A stretch of 64,000 nt of DNA from assembly GCA_016647705.1 (NCBI GenBank), contig CM028328.1, positions 49,089,647-49,153,646 of the forward strand, read 5' to 3'. Source of the stretch: Eucommia ulmoides (lineage: Eukaryota; Streptophyta; Magnoliopsida; Garryales; Eucommiaceae). Below, in pieces: positions 1,590-41,494 of the stretch (its first letter is position 1; each line of letters begins with the position of its first letter). The notes under the pieces are model-generated. The model was not told the DNA's origin. It ran no database searches and saw only the letters and a program-made list of their open reading frames with translations. Both the position numbers and the translations under genes were made by a program.

Positions 1590-2170
1590 TTTAATGTTCT
1601 TAATTTCTATATATTATATTTTCTCTTTTATATTATTTTCTTTAACTTAATTTACGTAAATTTAATATTTTAGTATTAATATTAAATTTAATGTTCATAT
1701 ATTATTTTTTTACATTATTTTCTTAATTTAATTTACGTAAATTTAATAGTTTAGAATTGTTAGTAATTGAATTTTCATATATTATTTCTATAATTTACAT
1801 AATTTTAATGATTTTTTTTTTATTATTACTATATTTAATGTCCATATATTATTTCTATAATTTACATAAATTGAATGATTTTGTATTATTACTAGTTTTG
1901 ATGTTCATATATTATTTGCATAATTTCTATAAATTTAATATATATTTTTTTTTATTACTAAATTTAGTTTCCATACATTAGTTTTATAATTATCGTAAAC
2001 TTAATGTCTATAATTTCTGTATATAATATTTTCTCGATTATATTATTTCTTTAGTTTAATTTTTATAAATTTAATGTTTCAGTATTATTATTAAAATTAA
2101 TGTCAATATATTATTTTTATAATTTATTTGTTATAAATTTGATAATTTAGTATTATTACTAAACTGTGCA
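1590..2170. repeat. AT-rich imperfect tandem repeats (left block)
   Basis: Units of about 65-70 bp recur, built on TTCATATATTATTTCTATAA and ATAAATTTAATG-like words (clear starts near 1773, 1841 and 1905). The same word set makes up the block at 25005-25440. No coding signal. The block ends abruptly where the Tat/Ogre-like LTR starts at about 2177. Confidence 0.65.
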
Positions 2171-3269
2171 TATATTGGACGTACCCCAGATTTTGATAGC
2201 GAAAAAAGTAGAGAATCGAGAAGATGATGAAAACAAGTTTCATCATCTTCTCTCTAAATCGCCCAAATTGGTTCATTTTGAAATGGTTTTTCAAGGGTTT
2301 TTCTAGGCGTTTGTTTTGAAAAACATCTTGGGTTGAGATTTTATGTTTAAAACGGAGTTAACACCTAGCATGGGATTAAATGGTGTGCTAGATTACTGGA
2401 ATTTTGGAAATGCATTTTTACCTTTAAAATGACCCGTGTTTTGACTTCCAAAGATCTATATACCTGAGATATTCTTTAAGTTCGGGAGTCGATTAAACTT
2501 GGGGAAGGTTTTACGCACCTTATGACACCCGTTCGTAAATGTTACCTTGTTCAAAATAGATATTCACTGTTAAACATATCTAAGCAGTTTTCTTTGATTT
2601 ACTTAAACAAGAATAATTTCATTTTTAAAATTTTTCTTCTTTTTATGTATTTTATCATGATGTAAGCAGTAAAGGTTATCTATTATGCAACTAAAACTAG
2701 AAACACATTTTTTTGTTTGTTTGTGTTTTTATCATAATGAAAGCAATAAATATTATACTATGCTATACTATTCTAGGTAACGACAACCCAATAGCAGTTT
2801 ATAAGGGATAGGAATATAAATATGCAACCTATACTCAATGGAATACAAACTAAGACTAAAATATTTGGATATGTGACCGAACCTACACTTGATTGCCTAC
2901 ATATCTCTGATTAGTGAGAATCAGGTCTTCACTTAATTCGTTCTTGTTAGGGTAAAGAGTATGGTTTATGTTATTAAAGGTATGACCAAACCCTTATGGA
3001 TTGCTTACTGGAAGGATGGTGACACATCTGATTCCTGTTTATCTACACAATTGGTGGATGGTGATGTACCCGATCGTACAAGGCATGGTGAGGACGACGC
3101 TCTATTTGAGCCTTCCCAATAACTATACTACTTCCGTATTATACTATTGGTTGTTATTATAGTATTGGTTTCTATTACAATATTGCTTTATGTTATTGTA
3201 TTATACCTTGGGACAGTGTTCACAGTACCTGGCCCAAAAGTCTTGGTGATGACGACACTCTGTACAAGC

Positions 3270-3965
3270 TCTCTCGATAATATGTACTTCACCGACCTAT
3301 GTGAGGTGGGAATGAATCTAACTCTCTAACCAACTATGGCTAGATAGGATGTACTTCACTGACCTATGCGAGGTAGGTATGTAGGTTTTCTTTGACTAGG
3401 ATGCTATATATTTCACCATCCCCCTATGAGGTAGGTATGGATTATTACTTCTCAGACCAAATAGGGTAGGAAATGATATTACATGTACTTCACCATCCCC
3501 TATAAGGAATGCATGGATTGTTACTTCTCCGACCAACTAAGGCAGGAAAAGATATTACTTCATCGACCTCTATGAGGAAGGTATGGATTTGTTATTTTTC
3601 CGACCATCTAAGGTAGCAAGGGATATTACTTAACCAACCCCTATGAGAAAGGTATGGATTTGTTACTTCTCCAACTAATTAAGGTAGGAAAGGATATTAC
3701 TTCACCGACCTCTATTAGGAAGGTATGGATTTGTTAGTTCTCTAACCAACTATGGGAGGAAAGGATATTACTTTATTGACCCCTGTGAGGAAGGTATGGA
3801 TTTGTTACTTCTTCGACCAACTTGGGTAGGAAATGATATTACTTCACCGACCCTGGTGAGGAAGGAATGAATTTGTTACTTTTCCGACCAACGAGGGTAG
3901 GAAGAATATCACTTCACTGACTCTTGTGAGGAAGGTATGGATTTGTTGCTTTGACTGATTGATGG
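3270..3965. repeat. 71-bp minisatellite made of two half-units
   Basis: Starts of ATATTACTTCACCGACC-like units fall near 3553, 3623, 3694, 3765, 3836 and 3907, a period of 70-71 bp, with more degenerate units from about 3346. Each unit consists of two related halves, TTACTTCNCCGACC..ACTAAGGTAGGAA and TTACTTCACCGACC..GAGGAAGGTATGG. A decayed relative lies at 9050-9340. It lies in the LTR-side part of the Tat/Ogre-like fossil. Confidence 0.85.
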
Positions 3966-4799
3966 ATTTGATTTTATGTAGATCGACATTTAGTCGAAAA
4001 AGTTCTTGGTAAGGACGACACTCTGTTCAAGCCCTCCCGCTGACACTACTATTAGATCCCTAAAGAATGATGCGCGCTCAATTCTATAGGATATGAAGAA
4101 AATGACACTCGATTATTGAATCCTAGTTGTGACTATACCCAAAGAGTTTTCCTATATATCTCAAATTAATGAGAATCAGGCCACATGTTGTTCTAATATG
4201 TAAAGTAAATCAAGATTGGCTGGAATGGTTCTGGGTTAAAAAAACCAATTTCGGGTTGTCTTGTCAGTCTGAGACTGAGGTCGACAATATATTTAACTAT
4301 TGATTTTTGTAAGCTCACATGACTGAGCCCCATCAGGGCACCTAAATATCTCAGAATTAATTGAGAATCAGGTCAAGTATAATTTGGACATGATAAGTAC
4401 ATCAATATTTGATGGAACATGTTCTTGGTTAGGGAAATTGATTCCTGGGTCATCATATCTATACAAGATTGAAAATAAATGAGAGAATTCACAATGGGCG
4501 AAAACCCTCTGAGAAACTCAACACCTAGTGGAGTTTCTTGGCCACATCCCTTCTTGGACTACTTGACGAGGACTAGAAAACTTCCTAGGGGAAATTTAAC
4601 CTCTGATAAAATGTGCCCCACTCGTAGAAAGGGGCTCTGTGATGCTTGTTCATTTTTTTTTGGGATTATGTATTTAGTTGGTGATTGGTGTGAGTCTTAT
4701 ATAACGAAACTCTCTACGGAGAAGATCTGATATAATGTGCCCCAACTCTAGCTGGGGAGACTCCTATCATAGAATCTTAATGAAAAAACCAGATATAAT

Positions 4800-4823
4800 G
4801 TGCCCCAGCTCTAGCTGGGGCAC
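4800..4823. repeat. 11-bp-stem hairpin, GCCCCAGC motif family
   Basis: GTGCCCCAGCT, two bases (CT), then the exact complement AGCTGGGGCAC. Weaker relatives, each preceded by an AT(A)AAATGTGC-like word, occur near 4610-4637, 4733-4757, 7853-7880 and 7946-7972. All are in the LTR-side part of the Tat/Ogre-like fossil. Confidence 0.85.
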
Positions 4824-5229
4824 GAGACTATCTCTTGAGCATTCAAAGGATATAGCAGAGCCCACTTGGGTTACCTCTATGTCCTGAACTAAGCATGCGA
4901 TGTAATGTTCATTTTAGTCTGGAAGCCCCGTTGGGTTGTTTATGTATATTGGTATTACTGTTCTGGAGGGTGATCACCTGATGACTGAAACCCACCTAGG
5001 TTATCTACATACACTGGCTTTCCTAGGTTAGAAATCCAGTCAAAAATATAGTTTGGCCCTTGTTGTGCTATCTCAGATTATCAATTGTACCCACAAGGGC
5101 TTCCTACGTACCTTAGTAATCTACCAAGGATCAGGTCGACGCGTAGTTCGAGCACATGTATCCTTTGTTGTCTACTTAACAAAAGGATTAGCTTCTCAAG
5201 AAAGTTAAGGGATTTCTTGGGAGATGCAC

Positions 5230-6849
5230 CTGTCTACTTAACAGGTGAGTAGGGTGAAAAGGTATGAAATCGAAGCATAAACGATCAAATTGTATGGAGA
5301 ACGGTGGAAAAATGAGGAAGGCGGCAAGATTCTGCAAACAAGTCCACCGCCGCAGTGTCCAGACCATCGCCACGGCGGTGAAGATGCTGAGAAGACAAAT
5401 GCTACTAATGGATCACCGCCTAGGCGGTGAACTAGCATAATGTTTTTCACAGCCATCGCCTCGGCGCAGCTTAACCAACATACTCCACCACCATGGCGGT
5501 GAATCCCACGGCTGCGGCGGTCAGCTCTGCGCAGTGTTAGATATTTATTTTAGATATTTTGTCTATTTATACCCCTTTTCTCCCCTCTCCTTTGCTTACT
5601 TCGGCCATTACAGCCCTTAAGGCTTAGGTTAGGATATAAATAGAGTATGGAGAGTGCTCAAACATATCCGAAGGAGAAGATCAACACGTGGAGAAGGAGA
5701 ATCGTTCGGTGGACGATTTTAGCGGCTAATCTTCGGATATCGACTAAGTTCATCCATTTTTCCTTTTATTTATTATCTTCTATGTATGTTTGAGCATGTT
5801 TAGCCTATTTTTAATTGTATAAAATATCTATGGCCATAAGTTAAACATGGATTATGTATGGAATTAATATCGTTTATAAAAACGTAGTTTTGGTTGAGTT
5901 TTGTTTCTTTGATGATTGTTCTTCAATGTTTGAGTGTGTTTATCATATTTTTTTTTTATTGTGTTTAGAATGATATATTGAGAATACAGGGTTTGACAAA
6001 TCCTGTATTCGGATCAGAATAAACAAACGCTACGATCCGATAACCCGGTCGGGGTTAGGATTGTGGACAATCAATGACGTTGGGGCAAGACTCACATGAC
6101 CTAGGGTCGTTAATATGTTGAGGGGGACTTCATCATTGACTCAAAGTCACGTATTCCCTCGTCTTACACTCGGGAGAGGTGGTGGTGGAGTTTTAGAACT
6201 GAGATTGTCGATAGGGTAAACACAACGCATGAAATCAATGACGTTGGGGCGAGACTCACGTGACCTAAAGTTGTTAAGATATTGAGGGAGACTTCTTGGT
6301 TGACACAAAGTCACGTTATATCCCTTGTCTTACACTGGGGAGAGGTAGAGAGGGAGTTTACGAATTGAGATTTTGTGTGTAATCAATAAGGTTGGGGCAA
6401 GACTCACGCAACCTAGGGTTGTTAAGACGTTGAGAGGGACTTCTTCGTTGATACAAAGTTGCATTATATCACCCATCTTACACTCAGGAGAGGTGGTAGA
6501 AAAGTTTTAGATACTAAGATTGTCGAATAGGTTGAACACCATTATTATAAACTAAACGAAATCAAACGCGTTTAAGTAAATAGAGTTAATCTCTAGATAA
6601 TCCATCCCATAACTATCTCGTATTAGTAATTAGTATAGTTAAATTAGTATTTTAGTATTAGTATTAAATTATATATTCCATTTTTGTCGCCTAGAAAAAG
6701 TCGGGTTATGACAATCGCGGTACTTGATAGTAATCTCAACCAATCCTTGTGGATATGAGACCCGACCTAAAGGTCCACTATACTAAAACTTGATTCGTAC
6801 ACTTACGGTGAAAGTGGCAGCGCATTAATTACAACCACCAAGTTTTTGG
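5230..6849 (+). mobile_element. LTR remnant of the tRNA-Asp-primed family (third copy)
   Basis: Read on the plus strand, this matches the reverse complement of the LTRs at 39828-41494 and 43349-45015. Shared features include CCTAGGCGG-type palindromes (5410-5430), the CCTTAAGGCTTAGGTTAGG stretch near 5615, the GTCGCCTAGA..AAGTCGGG stretch near 6687 and the end at ACCACCA (6840). Homology runs on for AGTTTTTGG (6841-6849), which lies between LTR and primer site in the 43-kb element, so this is a truncated element edge, not a simple solo LTR. A block that is single in the other LTRs is triplicated here at about 6066-6545 (about 155 bp per unit). No target duplication was resolved. Fossil, non-coding. 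Confidence 0.75.
6066..6545. repeat. ~155-bp triplicated block inside LTR remnant
   Basis: Three consecutive units each contain AATGACGTTGGGGC..GACTCAC (or close variants), then GTTGAGGGGGACTTC and a CTTACACTCGGGAGAGGT-like end, starting near 6069, 6237 and 6388. The two full LTRs of this family at 40 and 43.7 kb carry one unit each. Confidence 0.8.
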
Positions 6850-9800
6850 TTAGGATTGAGGAATTTTTGTTTAAGGTGACTACCCAACCTACAAAGGTTT
6901 CACGTATCTTGGTATTTACCAAGACTTAGGCTGATACCTAATTCTTCCTTGACTGATTAAAGTTTAATATGGTTAAATCTAGATTGGTGGGCTATTGTTA
7001 TATTTAGTATGGTCCAATTCCAATTGATTGGGGGATTCATTATTGAGCAACTATGTGGGGAATTTATTATTTGTCATGATTCAATCCTAATTGGTGTAGG
7101 ATTTTGTTAATGGAGACCTACATATCTTGGTAATCTACCAAGAATTAGGTCGAAACATAGTTCGATGCCTATTGGTTTGTCAACCAAACCCAATAAGGGT
7201 TCCCTACGTTTCTTGGACTTTGTCAGGAGTCAGGTTGATGTGTAGTTCTTGGTTAAGCATTCTCTATCATTTTGTAAACAAGAAGAATGCATATGGATTT
7301 CTCATGAGAGTCAAAAGACTATTCCTAGAGACACGCCTCGGTCTAAGGCCGAGAGAGCATCATAAAGATGATATTTCTCTCCCCTTTTTATTTTGACTGA
7401 ACCCTCTTGGGTTTCTTACATACCTCAGTGATCTACCAAGGATCTGGTTGAAATATTACTAGGTAGTTTTTCGGTGGTTAACCAAACCTTGTAAAGGTTT
7501 CCTAGGTATTCTTATTTTTGCAGGGAATCTGGTTGACACCTAGTTCAATACACATGAATGGTTTTTATTTTAAAGGGCATGCATGAACCCCTATATGGTT
7601 TGCTTACGTATCTTAGATAACTAAGAATCAGGTTGACACATAGTTCAACGTATATGATTGGGTTTAAGTTTGTTAACCAAACCCGCAAGTGTTTCCTACT
7701 TATCCTGGGCTTTACCGAGAATTAGACTGACACGTAGTTCTTGCGTCTTTTGGTTTAATGAATTTAATTAAATTCATTATGATTTTAGGACTTCATTTTA
7801 CGTCGCGAGATGAAATGAACATTGTTACTATCTGTAAAACATGGATAGGATGAAATGTGCCCCCGTCATAAATTGGGGCAGTGACTGGATAAGTTTCCGT
7901 TTGGGAATCTAATCCAACATTTCTTATCATGTGATTCATGATTATTAACAGTATAAAATATGCTCCAGCCAGTGGGCTGGGAAGGAGACTGATTAGCTAC
8001 AAGATTATGAAAATAAACATTGTTTGTCCTTTATAGTGATGTCCTTACCTTTGATACGGAACGGCTTCATCCCATAGAGCTCGAGGATCAAACCTTAGTA
8101 GGAGATATTTATGACCACCCTTTTATTTTCCTTTATTCTTCTCTGAATTTGCTACTGAAACTTTTTCTTAATTTATCCCTATTTCTTAAAAGACCACTAT
8201 CTTATATTTTGTGGGTAATTTTCTATAGGTTGACCCCCATTGTAACAGAAATTTTAGGGGCTCCTGGCTGACTTTTTACACCCTCTACTTGAGGAGGATG
8301 TACCCCGACTATAGCTTATTTCTCTAGGGATGTGGCTTCCGGGATTTTCTCACCATTTAGGACTCTCGCATGGATCATGGGTATCCTAATTCCCTGATCG
8401 AGCGATGGTTCTTGATGAAAAATTCTATTTACTTAGCCTGCAGAGAGTTGGTGCCGAGCCCCTTGACTGGGTGATGATTATCAGGGTTAGGTTCTGAGGG
8501 TGAGCCATTCCCTTGAGGGAAACATAATGGGCAGAGGTGGAGGCACTCTTGGATACTATACCAGTAGAAGCCAGGAACAAAGCGCGTATTCAATAGAGCA
8601 TCTTAGTGCCTGAGTCGGTCTTCACATTCCCAGCTCCATAGGACTTGATGTTTGAGGGATCAGTGCTATCGCGTCCTACTACTCCTATTCTTCTATGGGA
8701 CTTTCATGGATTCTTTCTTTAGAATTTTGGCAGATCTTCATCTATGGGTAGTCTTGTTCTTTTGTTAAAAGATTCATCCTTAAGGTGACTCTAAAGTTTC
8801 CCACAATTGTCTCGCAATCGAAAACCAAGCATTCTATGGTGCACAATGGTTTTTCTGGTTCTACAGTTTTTGATGAATTTGGATCACAATTTAATAAGGT
8901 TGTATTGTTGATGGTAGGAGTCATGAGAATTTGAGGTGTTGTGTATTATTGGTTCAGTGATGATTGTACGTGTACCAAATTGGTTTTGAAATTGACTATC
9001 GTTTATTAGGATTGTAAGTTATCGTGAAGGTATGATGGTATGGTAGAACGTTTGATCATTTGGGGTAAGATTGTATGGTAGAATCTCTAACTGCTTAGTT
9101 AGGATTGTAGTGTAGAAATTTTTACCACTTAAGGTAGGACAGTATGTTGAAATCTCTATTTAGGATGGTATGTAAATTCTCCGATTGCTTGAGGTAAGAC
9201 AACATGTATTCTTTTCCGACCACATAAGGTTGGACAGGATGTACTTCGTCGACTTGTGTAAGGCAGGAATGGATTGTATATTTCTCCGACCGACTAAGGT
9301 TTGATAGGATGTGAATTCCTCAGCCACTTAAGGTTGGACAATATGTTTCTTACTTTTCCTTCTTCCTTATGTAGTTTATTCTCTCAACTATTTGCCCAGA
9401 GATGAAAGAGGAATGTAGACAATCGAAAGTCATAGCTTGGTATGTAGATTTGGTAGATTTCTAGTAGTTTTTCGACCTTCATTCCTCCTAATCCCATAGA
9501 ATTTTGAATTACTAGTCAAATTTCGAATTTTCCAACTTGATTTCGAAATTGTTGTCCTTAGATAAACCTAAGACCTTCTTTAGGAACCAAAATTGAATGA
9601 CACATTTTTCTATATTTATTTTTCATTTCTACCCCCCCTAATACCCCTTAATAGGGAGTGGCAATATAAATTCAGACCCCTATTGCTTGGTGGAGAGCGT
9701 ACAATGGACTTTAACAGTTCCAATCTATGTATGACAATGGAAACTATAAGAATGTGCTTCTGCCCATGGATGGGGGTTTCGACAAGTGGATGAACGAACC

Positions 9801-10682
9801 TCAATACAATTCCTACGTACCTTGGTAGATTGCCAAGGATCAGATCAAGGATCAAGTGTAGTTCTTGCTTCAAGATTTCTCTTAACACTTACCTTCAAGA
9901 TTTTATGTTTTTAGAGAATTAGGGTCATTTGAATCAGTCTCAAGGTCTTTGTTGGTTTCGCCCTTACCCCGACTACTTTTCCCATTATTCGATATTATAT
10001 TGCCAATGGCTTATCATCTTCTTTCAGTCTTAAATGTCTTCAATTGTGCGAGGTTCCTCTAATTGTTATTTTTAAGTAGGTTTTCATGATGTCTCTAAAT
10101 TGGTTATGTCTAGATAAAGTCTTAACTTATATTAGTCAATCTTCCTTTGTTCAGCTACCCAATCGTTCAAGAACTTTTCTCGAACAGGCTTAGCCTCTAA
10201 GACTTTATCTATCTTTTTATATATCGTAAATCTTCCAGATATTTCTTCCTTCGTTCTAGTTGAAGAGGCCTTATGTACTTCTTCAAGGTTACTTGGATAC
10301 TCTCAGGTTGGAACATGTGTAGCAATTTCATAATAGGGCTCCTAAGTTTTCTTTCTAACGTTCTATGATTTTTTGTCAATATCTCACCATCTTTCGATTA
10401 AAACAAGACATTTATTTTAACATTTGTCCTTTGGATAATGGTCTAATTTAGTATTGAAATTATAATATCATTATTTTTAGTTATTCACGGTGTGTAAATT
10501 TTGACAAGAAGATTAATGTAAAAAAGTTAGAGTGTGAAGACCTGAGTCGACCTTAGATTAAATAAGCTTGTATTTAGTGATTTGTGAATTTAATACATAG
10601 GTATATAGGATAATACATAATTTATTAGAAAGTAATTAAGAAACTAAGGGAAACGAAAATATAGACGTTTATCCTCCTATTC

Positions 10683-10862
10683 TTTGATGGTCAGAGTTTC
10701 TCCTGAGATACTTATGATTTCTATTTGAATGAGATCCTCAACACATTTCTTGAGGTCCTCGTACTTATTGGTGTGGTAAACAGTCATTTCGGAGTGATAC
10801 TGGCAGAAAGTGCAATAGTTAAACCTTGGATCCTGAGGGTTTCCTAGGTTAGGAGGATTAGG
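10683..10862 (-). mobile_element. Ty3/gypsy gag (nucleocapsid-side) fossil
   Basis: The minus strand reads PRFNYCTFCQYHSEMTVYH, followed by an EDLKKCVEDLI stretch. This resembles the gag tail of Tat/Ogre-like elements (YCxYHxxxGHxTxxCxxLKxxIExLI). It supports the minus orientation of copy I. DNA up to about 11180 probably continues the same decayed gag. Partial and broken. Confidence 0.55.
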
Positions 10863-13323
10863 TGCTAACAGCTTATTCTTGGGTAGGCTTAAAGATTTGG
10901 TGAGGCAATGAAGATGAGATGAAATGTTGGTGCTCTGGGTGGATAAGAGTTAAGATGACATGTTTGATCTCATTAATAGATTGCTTCATGTTGTCATTCT
11001 GCTTCCATATCTTAGAAATTTCTCCCTAGACTGAGTCTTTCTTAGGCTCAAGGTTGTTCTCCCAGCTCGGCTGGTCTTGACTTGCGGCAGTGGCACAAAT
11101 GACATCTTCGCATTTAGCAAGGAAATAGTGATCTTTAGTAGCAATCTATTTTCCGTAAGGGAGCCTCTCAATTCGTAATTCACCCCAATACTTTATAATG
11201 CTAAGGGTATTTCTAGGTGACAATAATCAGTCCTCTTCTTGGAATAGCGAGGCTGGGTTCATTTAGCTCAGCATTTGTGTTAGGGAGGAAATGTACTATG
11301 GCTTCACAGGGATCTTGGAGTCATTATGAATACTTCCAACAGAGAAATGGATTGGGTCCATCTTATAATATTTGCGAACGGATCTCGATGGCTTTTAGCA
11401 AAAGTTACCTAAAGCAGATTTTTCTAGATTTATTAAGTGATTAACAACCTAGACCTCTAGTTATGAACTTTTAAGGATGCAAATTATCCTATCTTTATGT
11501 GTGGTTATATTCTTGACTATACATGAGTATGTCTATATAGACGATAATGTTAGTGTTATATGTATGTAATCCTACGAAAACGTAGCTCTAGTAGGCAATG
11601 TTCTGGACATACCTCAACTTGGAATTGGCTTTCTTAGGACTAGGGTAACTCAAATGTTTTGGATTATCCTAAAAAAAGATACAGTCCTCTAGGCTTATGG
11701 CATAAGTGACCCTTTATTCTCCAAGTATACACCATTCTTCCTAGGACTATAGGATACAAACGTCATTTTTTTTTCCTCAAGATATGGATCATGGCTCCTA
11801 AGAATTAATGATAGAAGTATCCTTTCTTTTTTCTATTCAAAGTCGGGATATTTGCTCCTAAACCTTGGTGACATACTCATCTTTTCTTGATAAATTGATC
11901 ACAGTTCTTAGGACCTAGCGAATAATTATCCTAGATTTTTCTTATGGATTACTTCTCTTAAGACTTAATGATAGGATTTTCTTATTTTTCTCCTCAATCA
12001 TAGATCATGGATCATGGTCTTGATGACAGAATTATCCACTCATTTTTCTTTTCAAATTAGGGATAATTGCTCCTCGGACTTGATGACAGACACGTCTTTC
12101 TTCCCCCGAAATGGATTATTGTTTTCCTAGGACCTATTGGCAGAACTATATTTTTTTTTCTTTCTCAAAGGATGGATTATCCTTCCTAGGGCTTGAGGAA
12201 GATTCTAAGACGCTTTTGAGTTCATGATATCCACTGTGGGTGAATTTGACAATCAGACGAGTGAAGTTTAACTAGCTTCCTATCAGAAAAAATTATGACT
12301 TGCTTAAGAAGTTTTAAACCTAAACGAAATGTCTTTCTTATGGTGCATAATTCCTACTGTATAGGATTTATGAGAAAGGACACTACGCTTAGGACATGAC
12401 ATGCATCTCCTACGGAATGGTAACCCGATATATGCTTACTATTTGTATCACACAGTCTTGATTCGACTATGTGATGACACTTTCATACATTTTGGTAGTT
12501 TAACATGATTTCACATGATCAAAGTAGATTACTTCGTGTTGTCTTAGTTGGCGAACCTTAGACAACTTTGTTTAGCAAAGGCTATGATTATTTGTTTATT
12601 TGAGATGGATTTTTTGTTTTTATTTAAAGGCGAAGGTTGTTGTAATTTTATTAGAGTAAATTTTTAAATGAATTATTATGGATGAAATGGGCATTATTAA
12701 TTTTATGTTTATGTTTGATGGTCTATTGGGTTATGTAAAAGAAGGATTCTTGTTCTTTCCTGCAATTTACTCCGTATTTAAATTTTTGAAAACATTTTTC
12801 GGTGCTTAGCAAGCTTGCAATGCATGGGATAGAACAAGAACTTTTATACTAATTATTATGCCCCTACTTGTCTTGGAAGGTTATTCTATATATCTAGTAC
12901 AACAGTAATGTCAATAACTATACAGAAATTAAAAATTACTTCTCTCTCCAAGATAGGTATCCTAAATAGAACAGGGTTTTGGTTATTCTTTATCCTAGAC
13001 TCATTATATATGGTTTTGGCTTTTCTTCTAGCGCATCCTGAGAAATCTTGGTTCCCAGACCTTCAAACATCTGGCGTCCTCCCTCAGGGAACATCTATTT
13101 TTGGTTGGTGGTTTGAGCGAGAAAAGGTTCGTAGCCGAATCCCGGGGGAGGAATCCACCTGGCCTTGCTTCTACTAACTTCTCTTTCAAAGTTAAGGGTT
13201 TTTAGGGTTTAGATTAGCGTGATGAAATCACCCACTTCAACCCCTACTATCGACTTCTCTATCCCTAAAAGAGTTACGACTTGGGTTTTCCATTAATGAT
13301 ATTCAATGTAGAGTGAGTGCTCG

Positions 13324-15896
13324 TGTCACAACCCGTCCCGGACACCCATCATCCCAGGGCTGGCGTGACTACAACATGACATCACCAATATCCAAACAAC
13401 CTAATAGAAATGACAATATACACCCACTGTATAATACATATATCTATTATGGGGGGGCGCACCTGGCCCGAAGTTTTTCTAACTAAAAGTATTTATCCAT
13501 GAACCTTCTTAGGTTCACCTTTGACAGCTTCTCTCAATCGTCCACATGACTTCATCACATAACTCTACCTAGTGCCAGTAGGGGACCGACTCCTAGCTGT
13601 TGTACCTACGAGTGAACTGCCTTCTTAGTAAAACATTTTAAAAATATTAATACGTTCTAAATATTTCCATAATTTAGTATGGATCAAGCACATGTATATA
13701 CGCAATGACAATAAAGTGATATAGATAAGTTCCATCCAGATCCATCTAGCATAAAATCCTACCAATCATCGTAATAAATAATATCAAATCAACCAATATA
13801 TGTAAAACACCACATCTCAAGCACTAATCTCAAACACACACCTCCAACACACATACGCTGGTCAGCCCTAGTGATCGTTTTAACCTCACGATCGGGAGTT
13901 GCAACGGTACCGTAACATTCATAGGAATGCCTTCCTACGAAATATCCACACCTCTTTTTGGGGAGAAATATAATCCACACCCCTTACAGGGAGAAATATA
14001 ATCCATACCCCTTTCGGGGAGAGCAGTCATGGCATCGTCAAAATCAAATACAGTATCATCGAATCGCAACTCAATAAATATCGCCTACTTAACATCGTCA
14101 AATCACCACGTCTACCACTTTTCTTAAAACCAGCTTTTAAATTCAAAAATTATATTTCATATCTTCTTTTAAAGAAAACGTCCAATTTTATCAAAACCAC
14201 TTTTCCACCATATATATTTTTTTTGTTTTTAGAAAACCAGGCATTTTTAGAAAAATAGATGTTTCCTATTCTCTTTTTAAAAACACCGTCTAATTTCACC
14301 AAATCCAGCGGAAATTCATTTTCACTTTCTTTTTGAAAACTATCGAAATCCAGTTTACCAACTCATTCAAATTCTGCTTGATCCATATCATTTATAAATT
14401 CATACAGTTTAAATAATCACATATTTCATCATATATATACATAGAAAAATAGTTTGGCAAGAAGACAGTACACTCACCTCGATATCCGTTTTGCAAAACT
14501 GACACTGCCCGCACTTTATCTGGACGCCAGTGCCTGTGAACCTAATAGTGGCAAATTCTAAATTAATATCTTATCTAAAACATCCTAATCATGCAATACG
14601 GACCCTATATTCCGAATTGTTACTAATTTTATATACCACGTACTTAAAATTAATTAATCGTTACGAAATTATTATGATTTTAGGATTTGTAACACTAATT
14701 AAAATTTAATTTAACGAGAATTAATAATCGATTGAAGTTTCATCTGTTTCCGAAACGTTTGGCGACCACGAGATGGGTTTTGGATTTTCCTGGGGTGGTT
14801 TCTGCAATTTCCCCTTTTTTTTTTTTTTTTTTTCTGCGCCTACTGTTTCTGTTTCTGTTTCAGTTTTGCGACCCCGACAATCGACGCCGAAGAACTCTCG
14901 CTGCTGACCAAAACTCTCCGCCAACCTCTACCGTGGGCGATCAACACACACACCCGCAACAGCAGAGCAGAACACACACACACTCATGCACAATCTCTGT
15001 CTGAACACAGCAGTCCCACCGACGACAACCCACGATGATAACACACCGTCGGAGTGAACGACCTCTCTGTCGAACGGACGGACATCACGCACACATATGA
15101 CAACGGTCTGAACGATGGACAAAGCACACACATACACACACACAAACGCAGTTGACGACGAGCCGAACACATTACCCAACACTTACTGGACGACCAACGA
15201 CGATCACCCACCACCTATGCCGAACCACCTTCTCTCTCTCCTGAAATTTGACAACGGCATACCCACGAAGTTCTCCGTCGACCAAACACACCACCCCACA
15301 CGATCGTCGACCACTGAATACCCATGCACGCCCACAACCTTGTAACCGAAACACCCTGCCTCGCCGGCGATCGCTTCTCAAACCCGAACTCTAGCCTGCT
15401 ATCTCTCTCTCTAGATTTTTTTTCTCTGATTTTCAGATTTTGGATTTAGGATTCTTGATCATGATATTTTTTTGATCATTACCTGTGCATGAGATTAGTG
15501 GATTTAAATTATCTAAGCGTGCCACATCACTTCTCTTATCTGATTCCTTGCCGGCCAGCTGCTTCCTCTGACCGCCGGTTCATGGGTATGTATATATATG
15601 ATAAAAAAAATAATCATTAATTGCTCTTTCCTCCCCCTAATTTCCTTTAAACCTTGATTTTAATCCTTTTCAACTTTTAAAAGTTTCTAAGATTTTCAAT
15701 TTCACCCCCTGAAAGTTTCATTTAAATGTTAAATGTCAATTTACCTCCCTAAATTGGGATTTACTGTTTCTATATTTTCAATTTGACCCCTAGGCTTTCT
15801 ATTTGAATTTTTAATTGTTCTAGTTTCACCCCGAATTTTCACAATTACTCTAAAATATCACTGAAATGACGTACATGCTACGATTGAGGTCTTACA
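13324..15896 (-). mobile_element. 2,573-bp solo LTR with GCTCG target duplication
   Basis: The plus strand begins TGTCACAACCCGTCC and ends GAGGTCTTACA, so the element reads on the minus strand with TGTAAGACC at its start and GGGTTGTGACA at its end, typical of some plant Ty3/gypsy LTRs. The flanks are GCTCG (13319-13323) and GCTCG (15897-15901), a perfect 5-bp duplication. No internal region, primer site or polypurine tract is attached, so it is a solo LTR. The sibling sequence near 18455-18475 has the uninterrupted target (AGTGCTCGTG). The interior has CA-rich stretches (14940-15140) and a minus-strand TATA-like run near 15592. Non-coding. Confidence 0.9.
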
Positions 15897-16026
15897 GCTC
15901 GTGAGTCAGAGAGAGTATACAGTAATGGAAAGACAATATCTAAATGCGGTATTTAAAGACAGTATTTTAAATGCAGTAAATAAAGACAGTAAATATGCAT
16001 GCATGCTGATATATACATATAAAATA

Positions 16027-16054
16027 ATATGCTTATTATTATTATTATTATTAA

Positions 16055-16100
<46 letters not shown>
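16027..16100. repeat. (TTA)n microsatellite near primer site, copy I
   Basis: TTA triplet repeat with one TAA-like interruption. The homologous place in copy II (18606-18672) holds (TTA)n followed by (GTT)n, so the tract is an inherited part of this retroelement leader. Confidence 0.9.
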
Positions 16101-16222
16101 GGTAGGGAATTATTTATGCTTTGAAATCAAAGACATAATGCTTGGATGTTATTAAACATTGAATATAAATTTGGACTCCAACTAGGCCTAACTCTCTTAC
16201 AGTACCCAGTAGAGTCGCCGGC

Positions 16223-18636
16223 TAATGCACCTTGAATTTTGATAGCGGAAGAAGGAAAGAATCAGGAAGAGAATGAAAACAAGTTTCATCCATTTCTCTC
16301 TAAGTCGTCCAAATCCATTTATTTTAAAAGTGTTGTTTCTAGGGATTTTCTAGGCATCGGTTTTGAAAAATTTATTGGGCCAAAATTTTATGTTTAAAAT
16401 GGAGTCATCACCTAGCATGGGGTTAAATAGTGTGCTAGGTCAATAGGATTTTGAAAATTCATGTAGTTTGGGTGGTTACCAAAGATCAGGTCTTCATGTA
16501 GTTCTTTCCTATTAGGGTAAAGAGAATGGTTTATGTTATTAAAGATGTTACCGAACCCTTATGAATTGCCTACATACTTTGAGTGGTTACCAAAGATCAG
16601 GTCAAACGTAATTCTATGATGAAGGTGAAATTTGATTTTTATTGTTTAAGGTGATTGAATCCTTATCATGGGTTGTCTACGTACTTTGGGTGGTTACCAA
16701 AGATCAGGTTAAACATAGTTCATTCTTGTTAAGTTAAAAGGTAGGTTGGTTTTAGTTCATTCTGGACAGACCTCGACTTGGACATGGCTTTCGTAGGACC
16801 AGAGTAACTTGAAAGTTTTAGTTTATCCTAAAAAAAAAGTACAATACTGTAGGCCTATGGCACAATTGACCTTTTATTCTCCAAGTATATATCATTCTAC
16901 CTAGGACTCTAGGGTACAAACGTCATTTTCTTACACAAGATATTGACCATGGCTCCTAGGAATTAATGACAAAAATATCCTCTCTTTTTTTTCTTTTCAA
17001 AGTAGGGATATTTTCTCCTACAACTTGGTGACAAACTTATCTTTTCCTGACAAATTGATCATAGTTCTTAGGACCTAGTGACAAAATTATCCTAGATATT
17101 TCCTATGGATCATTTCACAAAAGACTTTATGACAGGATTGTCCCATTTTTCTCCTCAAACATAGATCATGGCTCCTGGGTCTTGATGACTGAATTATCCT
17201 CTATTTTTTCTTTCCAAAGTAGGGACAATTGTTCATAGGACTTGATGACAGACACGTCTTTCTTCCCCAGAAATAGATTACTGTTTTCCTAGGACCTAAA
17301 GGCAAAACTATCTTCTTTTTTTCTCAAATGATGGATCATCATTCTCAAGGCTTGAGGATGAGTCTAAGAAAACTTTTAGTTCATGATATCTATTGAAGAT
17401 GAATTTGACAATCTGACCTGTAAACCTTAACTAGCTTCATATCAAAAAATGTTTTAACCTGCTTAAGGCTTTTTGAATCTAAACTAAATGTTTTAACCTG
17501 TACAAGATTTATGAGAAAGAACACTATGCTTAGGACATGACATACATCTCCTACGGAATGGTGACCCAAGATATGTTACTATTTGTATCACATAGTCCTG
17601 ATTCGACTGTGTGACGACACTTTCTTATATTTTGGTAGTTTAACATGATTTCGCACAATTAAAGTAGATTACTTTACGTTGTCTTAGTGGGTAAACCTTA
17701 GACAACTTTGTTTAGCAAAGGCTATGATTATTTGTTTATTTGAGATGGATTTTTTGCTTTTATTTAAAGGCGAAAGTAGTTGTGAATTTATTAGGGCAAG
17801 TTTTTAAATGAATTATTATGGATGAAATGGGAATTACTAATTGATGTTTTTATTTGATGGTTTATTGGGTCAAGTGAAATAAGGATTCTTGTTCTTTCCA
17901 GCAGCTTGATCCATACTTAAATTTTCGAAAACATTTTTCGATGTTGGGCAAGCTTGCAATGAATTGGATAGAACAAGAACTCTTATACTAATTATTATGC
18001 CCGTATTTATCCTAGAGGGTTATTCTATATACCTAGTACAACTATAATATAAATATTTGTATTAAAATTAAAAATGACATCTCTCTCCAAGATAAGTGTC
18101 CTAAGTAGAATAGGTTTTGGTTATTCTCTATCCTAGGCTCACTTTATGTGGTTTTGGCTTTTCTTTGAGCGCATCCTAAAAAGTCTCAGTTCCAGGACCT
18201 TTAAACCTCCGGTGTCCTCCTCGTGCGAACATCCATCTTTGGTTGGTAGTCCGAGCGAGAAGAGGTTCGTAAACAGATCTTGGGGGAGGAACCCACCCGG
18301 CCTTGCTTCTACTAACTTCTCTTTCTAACTTAAGGGTTTTCAGGGCTTAGATCAGCGTGATGAAATCATCAACTTCAGCCCTTACTGCTGGCCTTTCTAT
18401 CCCTAAGAGGGTTATGACTTGGGTTTCTCATCATTGATATGTAAGGCAAAGTAAGTGCTCGTGCGTTGGAGAGAGTATATAGTAATATAAATGCTGAAGT
18501 GTAAAGACAATATTTAAATGAAATATTTGAAGATAGTAATGTAAATGCAGTAAATAAAAACAGTAAATGTGTATGCATGCTGATATATACATATGAAATA
18601 ATATGCTTATTATTGTTTATTATTATTATTATTATT

Positions 18637-18672
<36 letters not shown>

Positions 18673-18793
18673 TGGTAGGGAATTATTTATGCTTTGAAAT
18701 CAAAGACATAATACTTGAATGTTATTAAAAAATAAATATGGATTTAGACTCTGACTAGGCCTGACTCTCTTACAGTCCCCAGCGGAGTCGCTA
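16223..18793 (-). mobile_element. Tat/Ogre-like fossil, copy II (internally deleted)
   Basis: It begins with an LTR-edge sequence homologous to 2177 and 18796, carries dyad motifs at 16465-16725, then passes directly into a block (16760-18475) homologous to 11602-13323 plus 15897-16200 of copy I. It ends at a second tRNA-Arg-type primer site, 18776-18793, matching about 16-17 of 18 bases of the tRNA 3' end. Several kilobases found in copy I are absent. It shares the middle LTR with copy I in a head-to-tail array. Non-coding and old. Confidence 0.65.
18776..18793 (-). other. Primer-binding site, tRNA-Arg type
   Basis: On the plus strand this reads TCCCCAGCGGAGTCGCTA, nearly the 3' end of plant tRNA-Arg with CCA; the minus strand is therefore the primer site. 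A second example is at 16203-16220. In both, the LTR edge follows within a few bases. Confidence 0.7.
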
Positions 18794-18795
18794 GC

Positions 18796-19772
18796 TGACG
18801 TACCCTGAATTTTGGTAGCGGAAGAACTAGAGAATCGAGAAGAGGATAAAAACAACTTTCATCCCTTCTTCTCTAAGTCATCTAAATCCATTCATTTTGA
18901 AAATGGTTTTTAAAGGGCTTTTCTAGGAGTCGATTTTGAAAAACTTCTTGGGCGGGAATTTTATTCTTAAAATAAAGTCACCACCTAGTATAGAGTTAAA
19001 TAATGTACTAGGTTACTGAGATTTTAGAAATTCATTCTTCCTTTTAAAATGACCCTTATTTTGACTTCCAAGGGTCTATGCACCAGAGATATTCTTTAAG
19101 TTTGGGATTCAGTTATGCTTGCAGAGGTTTTACGTATCCCAAGACACCCGTTCTTAAACGGCGCCTTGGTCTAAATACATATTCACTGTTAAACATATCC
19201 AAGTAGTTTTATTTGATTTAATTAAACAAGAATAATTTCCTTTTTAAAAAATTTCCTCTTTTTATGAATTTTATCATGACGTAAGTGGTAAAGGTTATCT
19301 ATTATGCAACTAAAACTAGAAACAAAAAATATTTTTATGTTTTTATCATATTGAAAGGAATAAATATTATACTATGCTACATTATTCTAGGCAATATCAA
19401 CCCAATAGAAATTTATGAAAGACATAAATATAAATATACAAGTCATACTAAATGAAATACAAATTAAGTCTAAATTGTTTGGATATGCAACCAAACCTGC
19501 CCTTGATTGCCTACGTATCTTGGATCAATGAGAATCAGGTCTTCACTAAGTTTGTTCCTGTTAGGGTAAAAGGTATGGTTTGTGTTATTAAAGGTGTGAC
19601 CGAACCCTTATGGATTGTCTACGTAATTTGGGTGGTTACCAAAGATCAGGTCAAACATAGTTCATTCTGGTTAAGGTAAAAACTAATTTTTATTGTTTAA
19701 GGTCATCGAACCCATATCATGGATTGCCTATGTACTTTGGATGGTTACCAAAAATCAGGTTAAACATAGTTC
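18796..19772 (-). mobile_element. Tat/Ogre-like LTR, copy III (truncated)
   Basis: Homologous to the LTR parts at 2177-3000 and 16223-16730. It has the same leader words, the GACACCCGTTC stretch (19143-19153) and three dyad motifs at 19495-19545, 19612-19665 and 19722-19772. It ends where copia gag similarity begins (about 19775), so its outer part is lost. Confidence 0.65.
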
Positions 19773-19774
19773 AT

Positions 19775-21270
19775 TCCAGGGTTTCAAGTTGTGGATCGGC
19801 GAAAGAAATGTGGGCTAAATTGCAAATCACCCACAAAGGGACAAATCAGGTGAAACAATCAAAAATCAATGCCATAGTTCATCAATTCGAACAATTCAGA
19901 ATAGGTGAATCAGAATCGATTTAGGACATGTACACAAGATTTAACAATATCTGCAACAATCTGAATTAACTCGAAAATCCCTATACGTTGGAGGATAAAG
20001 TGTGAAAGATCTTGAGATCATTAACTAAAGTGTGGGAGCCGAATGTGACTATGATTGAGGATGCAAAAGATCTTACGAAGTGTGTTATTGATGATCTCAT
20101 CAAAAACCTAATGACACATAAGATGGCTATTAGAGGATATGAGGACGATACGGGAAATGTTAAAAATAAGTCCTTAGCATTGAAAGTCCAAAGAAAGGAG
20201 GAAGAAGATAACAATGATGATGTCAATCTTAATAGTGAGCAAGAAAAAGGATGTGACGCTTCTCACGAAGAATTTCAGAAAAATTACTTGATGAACATTC
20301 CAGGGAAAGAGAAATTTCAACATGAGTAATGTGGAATGCTTCAACTATCAGAACACCGGTCATTTTCAATTCAAATGTCCCGATCCAGAGAAGAAAAAAG
20401 AAAAAAAGAGAAAGGAAAAGAAGAAGGTGAAGAAGAGTACGAAGAAATCAATGAAAGCCACCTGGGATAACTCGGAGTCAAGTAGCTCAAAAGAATCGAG
20501 CAGTAATGATTTATCTTTGCTTGCTTTGATGGCCACTGGAGTTGAGGTAACTAATGTACTAGTTCTTTCCCTTTAGATTTCAATGATTTGTTTGACATTT
20601 ATCAAGAACTAACACATGATTATCAAAATCAGTGTTTTCAAATTAATGCCCTACAAAGTTCAATTAGCACACTTAACAAGCAAGTGATGAAATTTGAATA
20701 TAAAAAAAATGAATTGAAATCCAATGTTTCGGATTTACATTTGATTGTTCTCAAATTCACGAGTGGACAAAATAATTTGAAAATACTTTTGGGAAGTTTA
20801 AGAGTGTTTTTCAATAAAGTTGGAATTGGGTTTAGAAAAACCTTAAATAAAAGAGATTTCATAAATTCTTTTCTGAAACCAAAGATCTTGTAAGATGTTT
20901 TAAATGTAATGTTACGGGGCATACTATCAGTTATTTTTTTTTTCTAAATTATCTAAATATAGACAAGTTTGGGTTCCTAAAAGAACTAAAATTGTCCCGA
21001 CTAATAAGATCAGACCCACTTAGATTGGGTACCACCTAGGAACTCTTTGAGGTGCTTATTTCAAGTTATTAAATAAACATCTATTTGCAAGGACAAATTG
21101 TTCCTAAGAAGTGGTTGTTCTCAATATCAAGGGATAAAGTAAAATTTACGTCTTTGACACCTAAAAACAGAAGTCATGTGATTTATGGAGATGATGCCCT
21201 GAGTAAGAAAATAAATTTAAATACGCTAGTAAATTTTTTTAAGACCTGTGTTGTTTTATATATTCTCGAG
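19775..21270 (+). mobile_element. Ty1/copia gag and start of protease, fossil
   Basis: The plus strand carries the copia UBN2-type gag core (SAKEMWAKLQITHKGTNQVK), a zinc-knuckle-like segment near 20336 (ECFNYQNTGHFQFKCPDP), a lysine-rich and coiled-coil-like linker, and a protease-side stretch (KFTSLTPKNRSHVIYGDDA) near 21140. The 5' LTR and the first part of gag are absent, and no integrase, RT or RNase H follows. Broken in several places. From 21270 to the LTR at 22140 is AT-rich non-coding 3' leader. Confidence 0.8.
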
Positions 21271-26757: not shown

Positions 26758-27270
26758 TGAAATAACGTATCTTAATATTCAATCATCGAATTATTAGAAT
26801 ATATCAAATGAACAGGTAATGATAATGGATTGAATATTTACAAAAATAAGAGATAAATTATTTATAAATGAGATTATTTACTTTTTTGGTGACTTATCAA
26901 ATTGGAAATAATCTAATAATAATATACATAACTGATTAAGGAGTAACAATTTACATAGATAACATTCAAGCATTAAAGAATGAGAAATACAACACTCAAG
27001 AATTGAAAAGTAAAAAAAAAAAAAAAAACATTTTACAAAAACTAAGATGTGGACCTAATATTTTTCGTTCAAGCATTTCGTCGAACACGTAAGAAATATT
27101 GGTTAATAGGAAATCATTACCTGAATTAATATATCTTAATATTCAATCATTGAATAATTAGAATATATAAAATAAATAGGTAATGATAATTGATTGAAAT
27201 TTACAAAAATAATAGAAAAATTATTTATGAAGGAAATTACTTACTTGTATGGTGGCTTAGCAAATGCAAA
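26758..27270. repeat. Direct repeat, two ~150-bp copies 355 bp apart
   Basis: 26758-26911 and 27113-27270 share TATCTTAATATTCAATCAT, AGGTAATGATAAT, ATTTACAAAAATAA and a GGTGNCTTA ending. The spacer is AT-rich. No coding content. Confidence 0.75.
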
Positions 27271-31150: not shown

Positions 31151-32488
31151 AGGGAAAATTACCTATTAATCCCAAAAAAAGAAATTATTTACCACCTACA
31201 CCCATCGATTTTTCTTTGCACCGATTAGTCTCGTAAACACGTTTTTCTTGCATCAATTAGTCCCATCAACACCTTTCCTTGCACCAATTAGTCCCATTTT
31301 AAAAAATGGTGAGGATTGAGTTTACCGAAATACCCTCCCATGAGTTTCACATTGAGAAGGAAGATCATCAAATTGGTGTCCCACCTCTGTCAGCCGCTGG
31401 TCGCCGCCACCGGTAGCCGGTCGCCGGTCGCCGCAGCCGCCGCCGCCATAAATTACAGCTTTACCCCAAACTTTATCACTTTTTGTCATTTTTATATGTT
31501 TCAAAAAAAAAAAAATCTTAATTTTAGGATAAAATCGTTACTAAACGTAATGTAAAATAAGAGAACAATTGATGTTATATTCAACATTTACAGGTGTTCA
31601 ATGTAATATCATATGTATTTTACTCTGCATACAAAAATAAGAGAATAATGGATGTTACATTCAACATCCACATGAGGGGTATTTTGGTTAAAAAAAAATA
31701 ACATTAAAAAAAAAAAAAAAAAAAACAGTTGATGTTACATTCAACATCCACATGAGGGACATTCAACATCCACATGAGGGGCATTTTGGTCAGAAAAAAA
31801 TAACATTAAAAAAAAAAACACAGTTGATGTTACATTCAACATCCACAGGTGTTGAATGTTACATTCAACATCCACAGGAGGGATATTTTGGTTAGAAAAA
31901 AATAACATTAAAAAAAAAAAAAAAAAAAAAACAGTTGATGTTACATTTAACATCCACATGTGTTGAATGTTATATTCAACATCCACATTAGAGGCATTTT
32001 GGTCAGAAAAAAATAACATTAAAAAAAAATTTACAGTTGATGTTATATTCAACATCCACATGAGGGACATTCAAAATCCACATGAGGGGCATTTTGGTCA
32101 GAAAAAAATAACATTAAAAAAAAAAAAAAAAAAAACACAGTTGATGTTACATTCAACACTCACATTTGTTAAATGTTACATTCAACATCCACATGAGGGA
32201 CATTTTGGTCAGAAAAAAATAGCATTAAAAAAAAAAAAAAAAAAAAAAAAAACAAACAATTGATGTTACATTCAACATCCACATGAAGGGTATTTTGGTC
32301 AGAAAAAAATAGTATTAAAAAAAAAAAAAACAAAAAAAAAAAATTAATAATTTTAATGTTACATTCAACATCCATGTGAGGGGTATTTTGGTCATAAAAA
32401 GACAAAAGGACTTATTGGTGCAAAAAAAAAGTGATGGGAGTATTTGGTAATTATTTTTGTATTTTAGAACTAAATAGTGCATGCCCCT
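31151..32488. mobile_element. Non-autonomous TIR element with internal tandem array
   Basis: The left end (AGGGAAAATTACCTATTAAT.., then ACACCCATCG..CTTTGCACC.ATTAGTC) is mirrored at the right end (GACTTATTGGTGCAAAAA..GATGGGAGTATTTGGTAATT..GTGCATGCCCCT). The inverted ends extend for roughly 80-100 imperfect bases. ATTTTTT flanks both sides, but this is weak evidence in T-rich DNA. The interior is the ~100-bp tandem array. No transposase. Confidence 0.55.
31630..32400. repeat. ~100-bp tandem array, eight units with poly(A) and hairpin
   Basis: ATTTTGGT(C/T)A recurs near 31681, 31784, 31884, 31997, 32089, 32203, 32291 and 32389. Each unit has ATTTTGGTCAGAAAAAAATA, ACATTA, a run of about 10-27 A, then TTGATGTTACATTCAACATC, whose GATGTT/AACATC arms pair, then CACATGAGGGG. 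Unit length varies mainly by the A run. Short ORFs on both strands are products of the repetition. Confidence 0.85.
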
Positions 32489-39827: not shown

Positions 39828-41494
39828 TGGTAGCCGCAAATAATGCATTGCCACTTTCATCGCAAGCGTACGGATCAACTTTTAGTATAGTGGACCTTTC
39901 GGTCGGGTATCATATCCACAGGGATTGGTGTTGTTACTATCGAGTATCGCGATTGTCATAACCTGACTTTATCTAGGCGACAAAAATAGAATTTAATTTA
40001 ATACTAATACTAAATTAAAATGCTAATTAAGTTAACTATACTATAAATACTAGTTTAAGATTATTTAGGGGAGTAGATTGCCTAGGGATTAACCTTATTT
40101 ACTTAAATGCGTTTGATTTTGTTTTAGTTAACGTTAACGGCGTTCGGCGTATCCGACAATCTCGGTTCATAAACTCCCTCGCCACCTCTTCCAAGTGTAA
40201 GACGGGGGAATACGTGACTTCGTGTCAATGCCGAAGTCCTCCTTGACGTCTTAACGACTCTAGGTCACGTGAGTCTCGCCCTAACGTCATCGATTGCACA
40301 CTTTCTAACGCCCTCCCGGGTCGTTAGATTGTTGTGTTGTGTTAATCCTAATCCGAATCCGGGGTTACGTCTCCCGAGTGTCAAACCCCGTATTCTCAAT
40401 ATATCTAAACTAGCATATAATCATAGAAAACACGGCAACACAATCAACATACGAAGAACAACCAAGAACGAAACACAAATTCAACCAAAAGTACATTTTC
40501 ATAAATAATACGTTAATCCCTATTATAATCCATGTTTAACTTATGGCCCTAACTGTTTATACAATGTAAAACGAGCTAAACATGCTCAACAACTACCAAA
40601 ATAAATAAAACAAAGAGAAGAAACGAGTGACTTAGCCTATATCCGAAAAATTGATGCTAGAACCGTCGAACAATCGTTTCCCTCTTCATCTTCCACCTCG
40701 GGTTGAGAGATCTCCCTGAAAAACCTCTCTAACTAACCCTAAAATATAGCCTAAAGCCTTAGGGGCTGAAGAGAGGGAAGAAAGGAGGAGAGAAGGGATT
40801 AAAATAGGTCAAAAGATCTCAAAATATCTAATAAATATCAAGACTGTGCTGCAGGATTTTCTCCTAGGCGAAGTTAAGTCGGTTAACTTTCTGGCAGAAT
40901 TTCCCCTAGGCGAAGTTACTACAGGTTTGCAAATTTTTTTTGGTTGTAACTTCTTCATCTGAACTCCAATTGAAATAATTCAAAAACCTATGGAAATATA
41001 AGAAAAATATATACAACTTCCATGTTTTGAGTATTTCCAAAATCGGATTGCATCATAGTCCAAAATAGCCTTAAAGTTACAGCACCTGTACCGACTTTGC
41101 AGGTTTGGTGACTGCCTAGGCGAAGAAGTAGGCGGTGGAATTGAAAATGTTTCTACTGGATTTTCCACCTAGGTGAAGGAATTTCCTACCTAGGCAGTAG
41201 GCTATCAGTAGCCTTTTGTCATTTTCAGCATCTTCACTGCCTAGGCGGAGGTCTGGACGCCTAGGCGGTGGGCTTCCTTCATATTTTTACCTCCTTGCTT
41301 GTTTATCTATCGTAACTTCGACTCGTATTTGGTTCGATCTCATCGTTTTCGCTCCAGTTTCCTATATTTTTGCTCTACACACCTAATTTATACAAAAAGT
41401 ACAAAAACATATTAAAACATATAAAAATAACTATAAACGTACTCGAAAACTAACAAATTCGGATTGGAAATACGTAGGTAATTGACACCTATCA
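39828..41494 (-). repeat. 3' LTR of nested gypsy element
   Basis: 1,667 bp, TG..CA on the plus strand, same length as its partner. It contains about ten GCCTAGGCG-like palindromes at 40863-41270 and a GGGTATCATATCCACAGGGATT box near 39908, as in many tRNA-Asp-primed plant elements. Confidence 0.9.

Follow-up and report, generated by a model that had tools for sequence, protein, structure and literature searches.

A recurrent foldable unit of about 68 nt was found in the long terminal repeats (LTRs) of what is probably a Tat-like Ty3/gypsy retrotransposon in the genome of Eucommia ulmoides. The window, that is, the whole stretch of 64,000 nt that was analysed (assembly GCA_016647705.1, contig CM028328.1, positions 49,089,647 to 49,153,646), has 18 copies of the motif, spanning 2896-19772. 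The unit has kept its self-complementarity during sequence change, most clearly in an inner hairpin stem (P2), beside a nearly fixed loop word. A folded nucleic acid recognised through its loop is the simplest explanation. As a tentative first choice, I read the tandem units as a structured RNA signal close to the transcript's 3′ end, probably encoded in the U3 region of the LTRs.

Anatomy and genomic copies of the unit

On the sense strand, an outer stem P1 (CTACGT/ACGTAG) encloses an asymmetric internal loop, whose 5′ strand carries ACCTGAT and whose 3′ strand is a single base. The loop word ACCTGAT is nearly fixed. The inner hairpin P2 has a stem of 5-8 bp and a loop of 3-7 nt, as judged by inspection. 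A second hairpin, B (AACCC/GGGTT or AACCT/AGGTT), comes after P2 and P1 and is part of the unit. A possible helix, P3, would join TGACC before the loop word to GGTCA after B, thereby crossing P1 and closing the unit. The word GATCAGGT, which an earlier sequence-only reading of this DNA had called constant, is the long strand of the asymmetric internal loop. It is not invariant: one of its positions is only 84% conserved in 203 copies despite being a search anchor, and the variants ATTAGGT and ATCTGGT occur.

All the evidence comes from one genome, a 947-Mb plant assembly of 391 contigs. There, the pattern TACGTA-N15..20-ATCAGGTC has 1947 exact matches (990 + 957), against 12 (5 + 7) for the reversed control pattern. 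The stricter half-motif GATCAGGTCNNNACGTAG has 177 (92 + 85), against none for its control. The fetched loci contain 1-18 motif matches each, and 56 of the 72 spacings under 200 nt between units measure 100-113 nt. The maximum of 18 matches was found in a 7.5-kb locus (L018), where groups of two to three units are repeated several times at 1600-6700; this pattern is a local expansion of the array. A fuller motif pattern found no match in IMG/VR, and a similar one found none in the GTDB genomes; five matches in IMG/VR came from one unrelated sequence and were discarded. A search of the literature, mostly among openly available papers, gave no description that was recognised as this motif.

Three samples underlie the statistics. 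The first set comprises 184 matches (168 in 47 of 48 fetched loci and 16 in the window), of which the 160 with a P2 region of 16-19 nt were used; 156 distinct copies entered the tree test. The second set comes from 20 loci with 50 matches, 45 of them used. The joint alignment of both sets contains 203 of the 205 copies. For the genome run, the 100 listed of the 1947 exact-anchor places (97 on contig 1 and 3 on contig 2) gave 91 distinct segments; it is not a fully separate sample, because 5 of the 100 places lie in first-set loci. The search anchors were CCTACGTA, ATCAGGT, and ACGTAGTTC. As they do not include P2, this stem is free of search selection.

Over all sets, P2 takes the form of seven distinct perfect 5-bp stems, namely CTTTG/CAAAG, TCTCA/TGAGA, TCCTT/AAGGA, CCTTG/CAAGG, TCTTA/TAAGA, TCTTG/CAAGA, and, once, TCCCT/AGGGA. 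Perfect stems were found in 52 of 160 copies of the first set, 14 of 45 of the second, and 24 of 91 of the genome run. The length of the P2 loop also differs between copies while the pairing is kept (by inspection). This is the behaviour of hairpins rather than of protein dyads with a fixed spacing.

Covariation of the stems

When 5-bp helices were scanned in the unit, P2 came first by covariation, while P1, P2, B, and P3 led by pairing. In the 203 copies, the summed covariation of P2 was 1.396, whereas the tree-aware null had a mean of 0.201 and a maximum of 0.623 in 400 simulations. The 156 distinct first-set copies gave 1.397, against a null maximum of 0.669 in 300. Pair by pair, the scores of P2 pairs 1-5 were reached by 0, 0, 1, 7, and 0 of the 300 simulations for the 156 copies, and by 0, 0, 4, 5, and 0 of the 400 for the 203 copies. 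When 361 complementary column pairs from outside the structure were taken as background, each of these five pairs was reached by 0 or 1 of them. Double changes from one Watson-Crick pair to another on a single branch were counted 17 times in P1 and P2, against a null mean of 4.9 and a maximum of 11 in 60 simulations.

The paired fraction of P2 points the same way. It was 0.753 in the first set, above both shuffle maxima (0.557 and 0.703), and 0.758 in the 91 segments of the genome run, against 0.527 with a maximum of 0.598 in 2000 shuffles. In the second set (n = 45) it was 0.770, against 0.569 and a maximum of 0.670 in 500 shuffles when the arms were dealt over all copies. The sequence-only reading had proposed a comparison of the covariation with a phylogeny-aware null. 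P2 lies above that null, and the result is echoed in the second set and in the partly overlapping genome run. That reading had also named loss of pairing in younger elements as a finding that would speak against structure. No such loss was seen, and P2 pairing is steady with anchor divergence, which is a proxy rather than a measure of dated ages. The steadiness fits robust stems, but it also means that decay was not tracked.

The other helices covary more weakly than P2. In the 203 copies, P1 and B each have one pair whose score was reached by 0 of 400 nulls, and their sums were reached by 9 and 16, respectively. The pairing of P3 lies above all 400 nulls; its summed covariation was reached by 45 of 400 and is not significant. 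In P1, in B, and in P3 (there one of five), a single pair was reached by 0 or 1 of the 361 background pairs.

Window copies and their host element

A scan of the window with three words gave 14 true copies, and four more were added by eye; all 18 lie on the minus strand. The scanned copies, all with parsed stems, are m01 (2896-2939), m02 (4151-4193), m04 (5103-5149), m06 (7117-7163), m07 (7203-7248), m08 (7415-7469), m09 (7501-7546), m10 (7603-7646), m12 (9812-9864), m14 (16569-16614), m15 (16676-16721), m16 (19510-19553), m17 (19618-19663), and m18 (19727-19772). The stems of m01, m02, and m16 belong to class II and those of m14, m15, m17, and m18 to class I. Hairpin B of m17 was placed by eye at about 19600-19617. 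The copies added by eye are m03 (4341-4385; stem parsed), m05 (6899-6946; degenerate loop word, no stem parse), m11 (7695-7740; no stem parse), and m13 (16463-16504), a partial copy that lacks one P1 arm and was mis-parsed. In 10 dinucleotide shuffles of the window, scanned on one strand, no site with four or fewer mismatches was found. A match at 47367 is unrelated to the motif, and one at 27039, seen in a wider scan only, was not counted as a true copy. At 11571-11590 there is an apparent deletion relic, in which the P1 arms adjoin without P2 (by eye).

The motif itself had thus been seen correctly in the sequence-only reading, which counted about 16 copies over three sibling LTR regions, and all seven stems that it named lie where it placed them. 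It described the inner stem as differing between copies while still pairing. In the sense strand, P2 pairs poorly in three copies: m16, which is mismatched there (3 of 5 pairs); m07 (4 of 6); and m09, where P2 is largely broken, with 3 of 6 pairs and one G.U in addition.

Self-comparison of the window revealed three sibling regions plus a tandem LTR-internal-LTR arrangement. In 13 of the first 48 fetched loci, similarity to the window ends within 18792-18796, and in 10 it continues past that point. The minus strand reads there as an LTR end. Two bases beyond the LTR end lies a sequence like a primer-binding site (PBS), which I take to fit the tRNA-Arg type. Compared with that type, it is mismatched at 1 of 16 positions in window copy C (18777-18792, minus strand) and at 3 of 16 in copy B (16204-16219, minus strand), and it is unlike the tRNA-Met type. 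A decayed PBS-like sequence follows the LTR end in 6 of the 10 loci tried. The LTR edges and the PBS-like sequence place the element on the minus strand. The version given in the sequence-only reading was therefore antisense, and its reverse complement is the sense motif.

A PBS of the tRNA-Arg type marks the Tat clade and is an Ogre trait, as are very long LTRs. The LTR segment at 18796-19776 (minus strand) has its sense end at 18796 and is cut at about 19776 beside a copia-gag-like remnant. The 3′ part of a long LTR lies at 2178-5230 (minus strand); its end at about 2178 has no PBS after it, as in a 3′ LTR or a solo LTR. This LTR continues at 6850-8017 (minus strand) beyond an inserted Athila-like LTR fragment, and the flanks of the insert match only about 115-130 nt apart in four loci (L003, L012, L029, and L033). 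In one subfamily the match extends from 2178 to about 8017, interrupted by the insert, with no LTR start found.

In the sense direction, a TATAAA at 2798-2803 (minus strand) comes 100 nt after m01, and the LTR end follows about 627 nt later. A TATAAA-like block recurs in 16 aligned LTR ends. Exact TATAAA was found in 10 of the 16, 538-646 nt before the LTR end. It follows the last TACGTAGG by 89-100 nt in 8 of these 10 LTRs; in the remaining two the distance is 47 and 159 nt. Since the array is near the LTR end and upstream of this block, it probably sits in the U3 of a Tat-like LTR. Among the 16 LTR ends, one unit has a mean pairwise identity of 0.80 and the next unit one of 0.68, and the values for the leader, the LTR end, and other parts of U3 are 0.79, 0.81, and 0.58, respectively; the unit value is inflated, because most loci were picked by a word inside the unit. 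The idea of a second primer site in U3, as in Ty3, was abandoned after no more than an inspection of the sequence.

Several other features lie nearby. The long LTR contains a tandem repeat at 3421-3951 (71 bp × 7.4 copies). A gag-like piece at 10680-10949 has no Pfam match. A solo-LTR-like insertion (TGTCACAACCCG...TTACA) with GCTCG at both flanks lies at 13324-15896 in the Tat-like internal region (by eye). Near the array end at 19772 there is a copia-type gag remnant (20006-20576), whose weak Pfam match (20006-20329, E 0.028) is below the cut-off. A pair of LTR-like repeats, 92% identical, was found at 39828-41494 and 43349-45015. The PBS complement beside the second repeat is presumably of the Athila type, and a relative interrupts the Tat-like LTR at about 5230-6850. 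The pair was rejected as a host of the motif, as only the word CCTACGTA was seen near its ends by inspection and its PBS is of another type. A further tandem repeat array at 31652-32400 has periods of about 111 and 206 bp and contains, as seen by eye, a short inverted repeat, TGTTACATTCAACA.

Possible readings of the foldable unit

Is the unit folded as RNA or as DNA, or is its symmetry only a trace of its history? I favour an RNA signal first, a DNA dyad second, and maintenance by template switching third. In the RNA of an LTR element, the U3 of the 3′ LTR comes close to the 3′ end. Because it belongs to the element's transcript, an RNA signal is the first choice, and the folded form of the unit would then be RNA. 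The sequence of P2 would be free to change provided that its pairing holds, and the row of units would offer binding sites for proteins in that part of the element RNA. The likeliest use may be in cis, as a signal for export, stability, or packaging of the element's own RNA, and the signal would be read through the ACCTGAT loop.

A number of observations weigh against this choice. RNAalifold returned no structure for 42 copies. The mean pair probability in the sense strand of 205 copies was 0.43 for P2 and 0.21 for P1; the P1 arms were among the search anchors, which inflates the pairing of this stem. Energies hardly differ between the strands when the second hairpin is included (-14.99 in sense and -14.73 in antisense). 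In favour of the RNA reading, the core folds better in sense than in antisense (mean z of -1.42 versus -0.97 in 160 copies). The placement in U3 rests on a TATA-like block known by sequence match only. The G.U pairs, which were examined in several ways, are divided. Exact-anchor copies combined have 80 in sense and 53 in antisense (p 0.024), or 42 and 25 when counted by cluster (p 0.05), and those of the genome run have 59 and 33 (p 0.009). The first exact-anchor copies are even (21:21), and the decayed copies are reversed, with 55 in sense and 73 in antisense (p 0.13). Counted by events, P2 leans to antisense (39.1 in sense versus 54.5) and P1 does not lean (39.0 and 41.0). The asymmetry that points to sense RNA is only suggestive.

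This lack of a sense preference by events is what may be expected if the symmetry works in DNA. The units would then be enhancer-like dyads upstream of a TATA box, bound by dimeric proteins or extruded as cruciforms, with stem classes for different binders. The array indeed lies upstream of the TATA-like block, and each P1 arm has an ACGT core. The closest precedent, by analogy, is the palindromic repeats of the Sirevirus elements (Ty1/copia). These repeated motifs are simple dyads of 10-20 nt, all but one with a CGG-CCG core, and they cluster in the LTRs, ahead of the TATA box, and vary from element to element (PMC2829016). As in the Sirevirus LTRs described there, many palindromic copies lie upstream of TATA in each LTR, known here from a match to the TATA word, and the arms differ while the symmetry is kept. 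In contrast, the present unit measures 68 nt and combines two hairpins with a conserved asymmetric loop, and its copies covary within a single genome. None of the perfect P2 stems listed above has the CGG-CCG core. The freely varying P2 arms and loop length are unlike fixed half-sites, the conserved loop word is on one side only, and a covarying pair is also found in B and possibly in P3. A DNA dyad is the foremost competitor of the RNA signal, if on the whole an unlikely one.

The other observations against a selected RNA fold concern the covariation itself. The innermost pairs of P2 do not covary: pairs 6 and 7 were reached by 207 and 258 of 300 nulls in the 156 copies, and pair 6 by 216 of 400 in the 203 copies. 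Pairs 1-4 change almost only by transitions. A generic all-pairs G statistic under the tree null gave a best E of 0.17 and a second of 1.07, both in P2, and none below 0.05. The 0.770 of the second set is not above shuffles within length classes (mean 0.739, maximum 0.789), so its signal is mostly between stem classes. Within class II there is no association (144 versus 144.0). Because both fail such within-group shuffles, much of the covariation lies between a few deep stem classes.

This concentration, like the weak all-pairs result, would suit a mutational history in which the stem classes arose by duplication of ancestral palindromes and one arm was copied onto the other by template switching, with no selection for a fold. 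Template switching has been argued to create and maintain hairpin stems (PMC8794818). However, the covariation in P1, B, and P3 concerns single pairs whose neighbours hardly vary, unlike the copying of whole blocks. There are also stems with a difference at only one pair (CTTTG/CAAAG and CCTTG/CAAGG), and ACCTGAT, which lies outside the stems, shows about the same conservation as the P1 core, although both are search anchors. I regard this history as somewhat less probable than a DNA dyad. The sequence-only reading had taken the paired changes as what selection for structure, in RNA or DNA, would leave. Its observation of complementarity-preserving change stands for P2, while structural selection is partly supported and has template switching as an alternative.

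Might the unit be more than a signal? It seems improbable that it is a compact pseudoknotted RNA (P1, P2, B, and a crossing P3), in tandem rows in the LTRs of a large plant retrotransposon family, and a new class of cis-acting RNA, perhaps self-cleaving or protein-recruiting. If P3 is real, the strand order P1-P3-P2-P1′-B-P3′ would be that of ribozymes like the one of hepatitis delta virus (HDV), which have a nested double pseudoknot and cleave at the first nucleotide of P1 (PMC4908430). Ribozymes in plant LTRs also have a precedent, since hammerheads occur in the LTRs of retrozymes (PMC4918200). Like retrozymes, the element has a structured RNA motif, here a predicted one, inside plant LTRs with Ty3-gypsy traits. 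Unlike them, it shows no hammerhead match (in the window at the gathering threshold and in 7 loci), and its LTRs are far longer than about 350 bp. The window has no Rfam match at gathering, and no ribozyme was among the 14 Rfam matches up to E 5 in 7 of the 68 fetched loci. The micro-RNA-like matches in these 7 loci were below gathering and were set aside. The strand joining to P3′ is a single base, the joint between P3 and P2 has 4 nt, and the covariation sum of P3 is not significant. As no Rfam ribozyme match was found and the joints do not fit, the unit was not classed as an HDV-like ribozyme, and a self-cleaving or other catalytic RNA is very improbable.

The host would resemble Tat/Ogre-type Ty3/gypsy elements in its putative tRNA-Arg-type PBS and probably very long LTRs. 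Large non-coding regions, another point of likeness, are described for such elements in PMC6317226, where a tRNA-Arg PBS is given for 10% of all plant LTR elements, with no lineage named in the available text. A structured LTR unit like the present one has no mention in that text.

The structured RNA signals of plant LTR retrotransposons are, to my knowledge, poorly described. In the unit reported here, both halves of a stem changed together without losing their pairing, a sign that the folded shape may matter. With about 2000 exact-core copies in one genome, changeable stems, and a nearly fixed loop, the unit is a testable candidate for a means by which such elements may mark their own RNA. 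Its copies also form a natural data set for telling structural selection from template switching.

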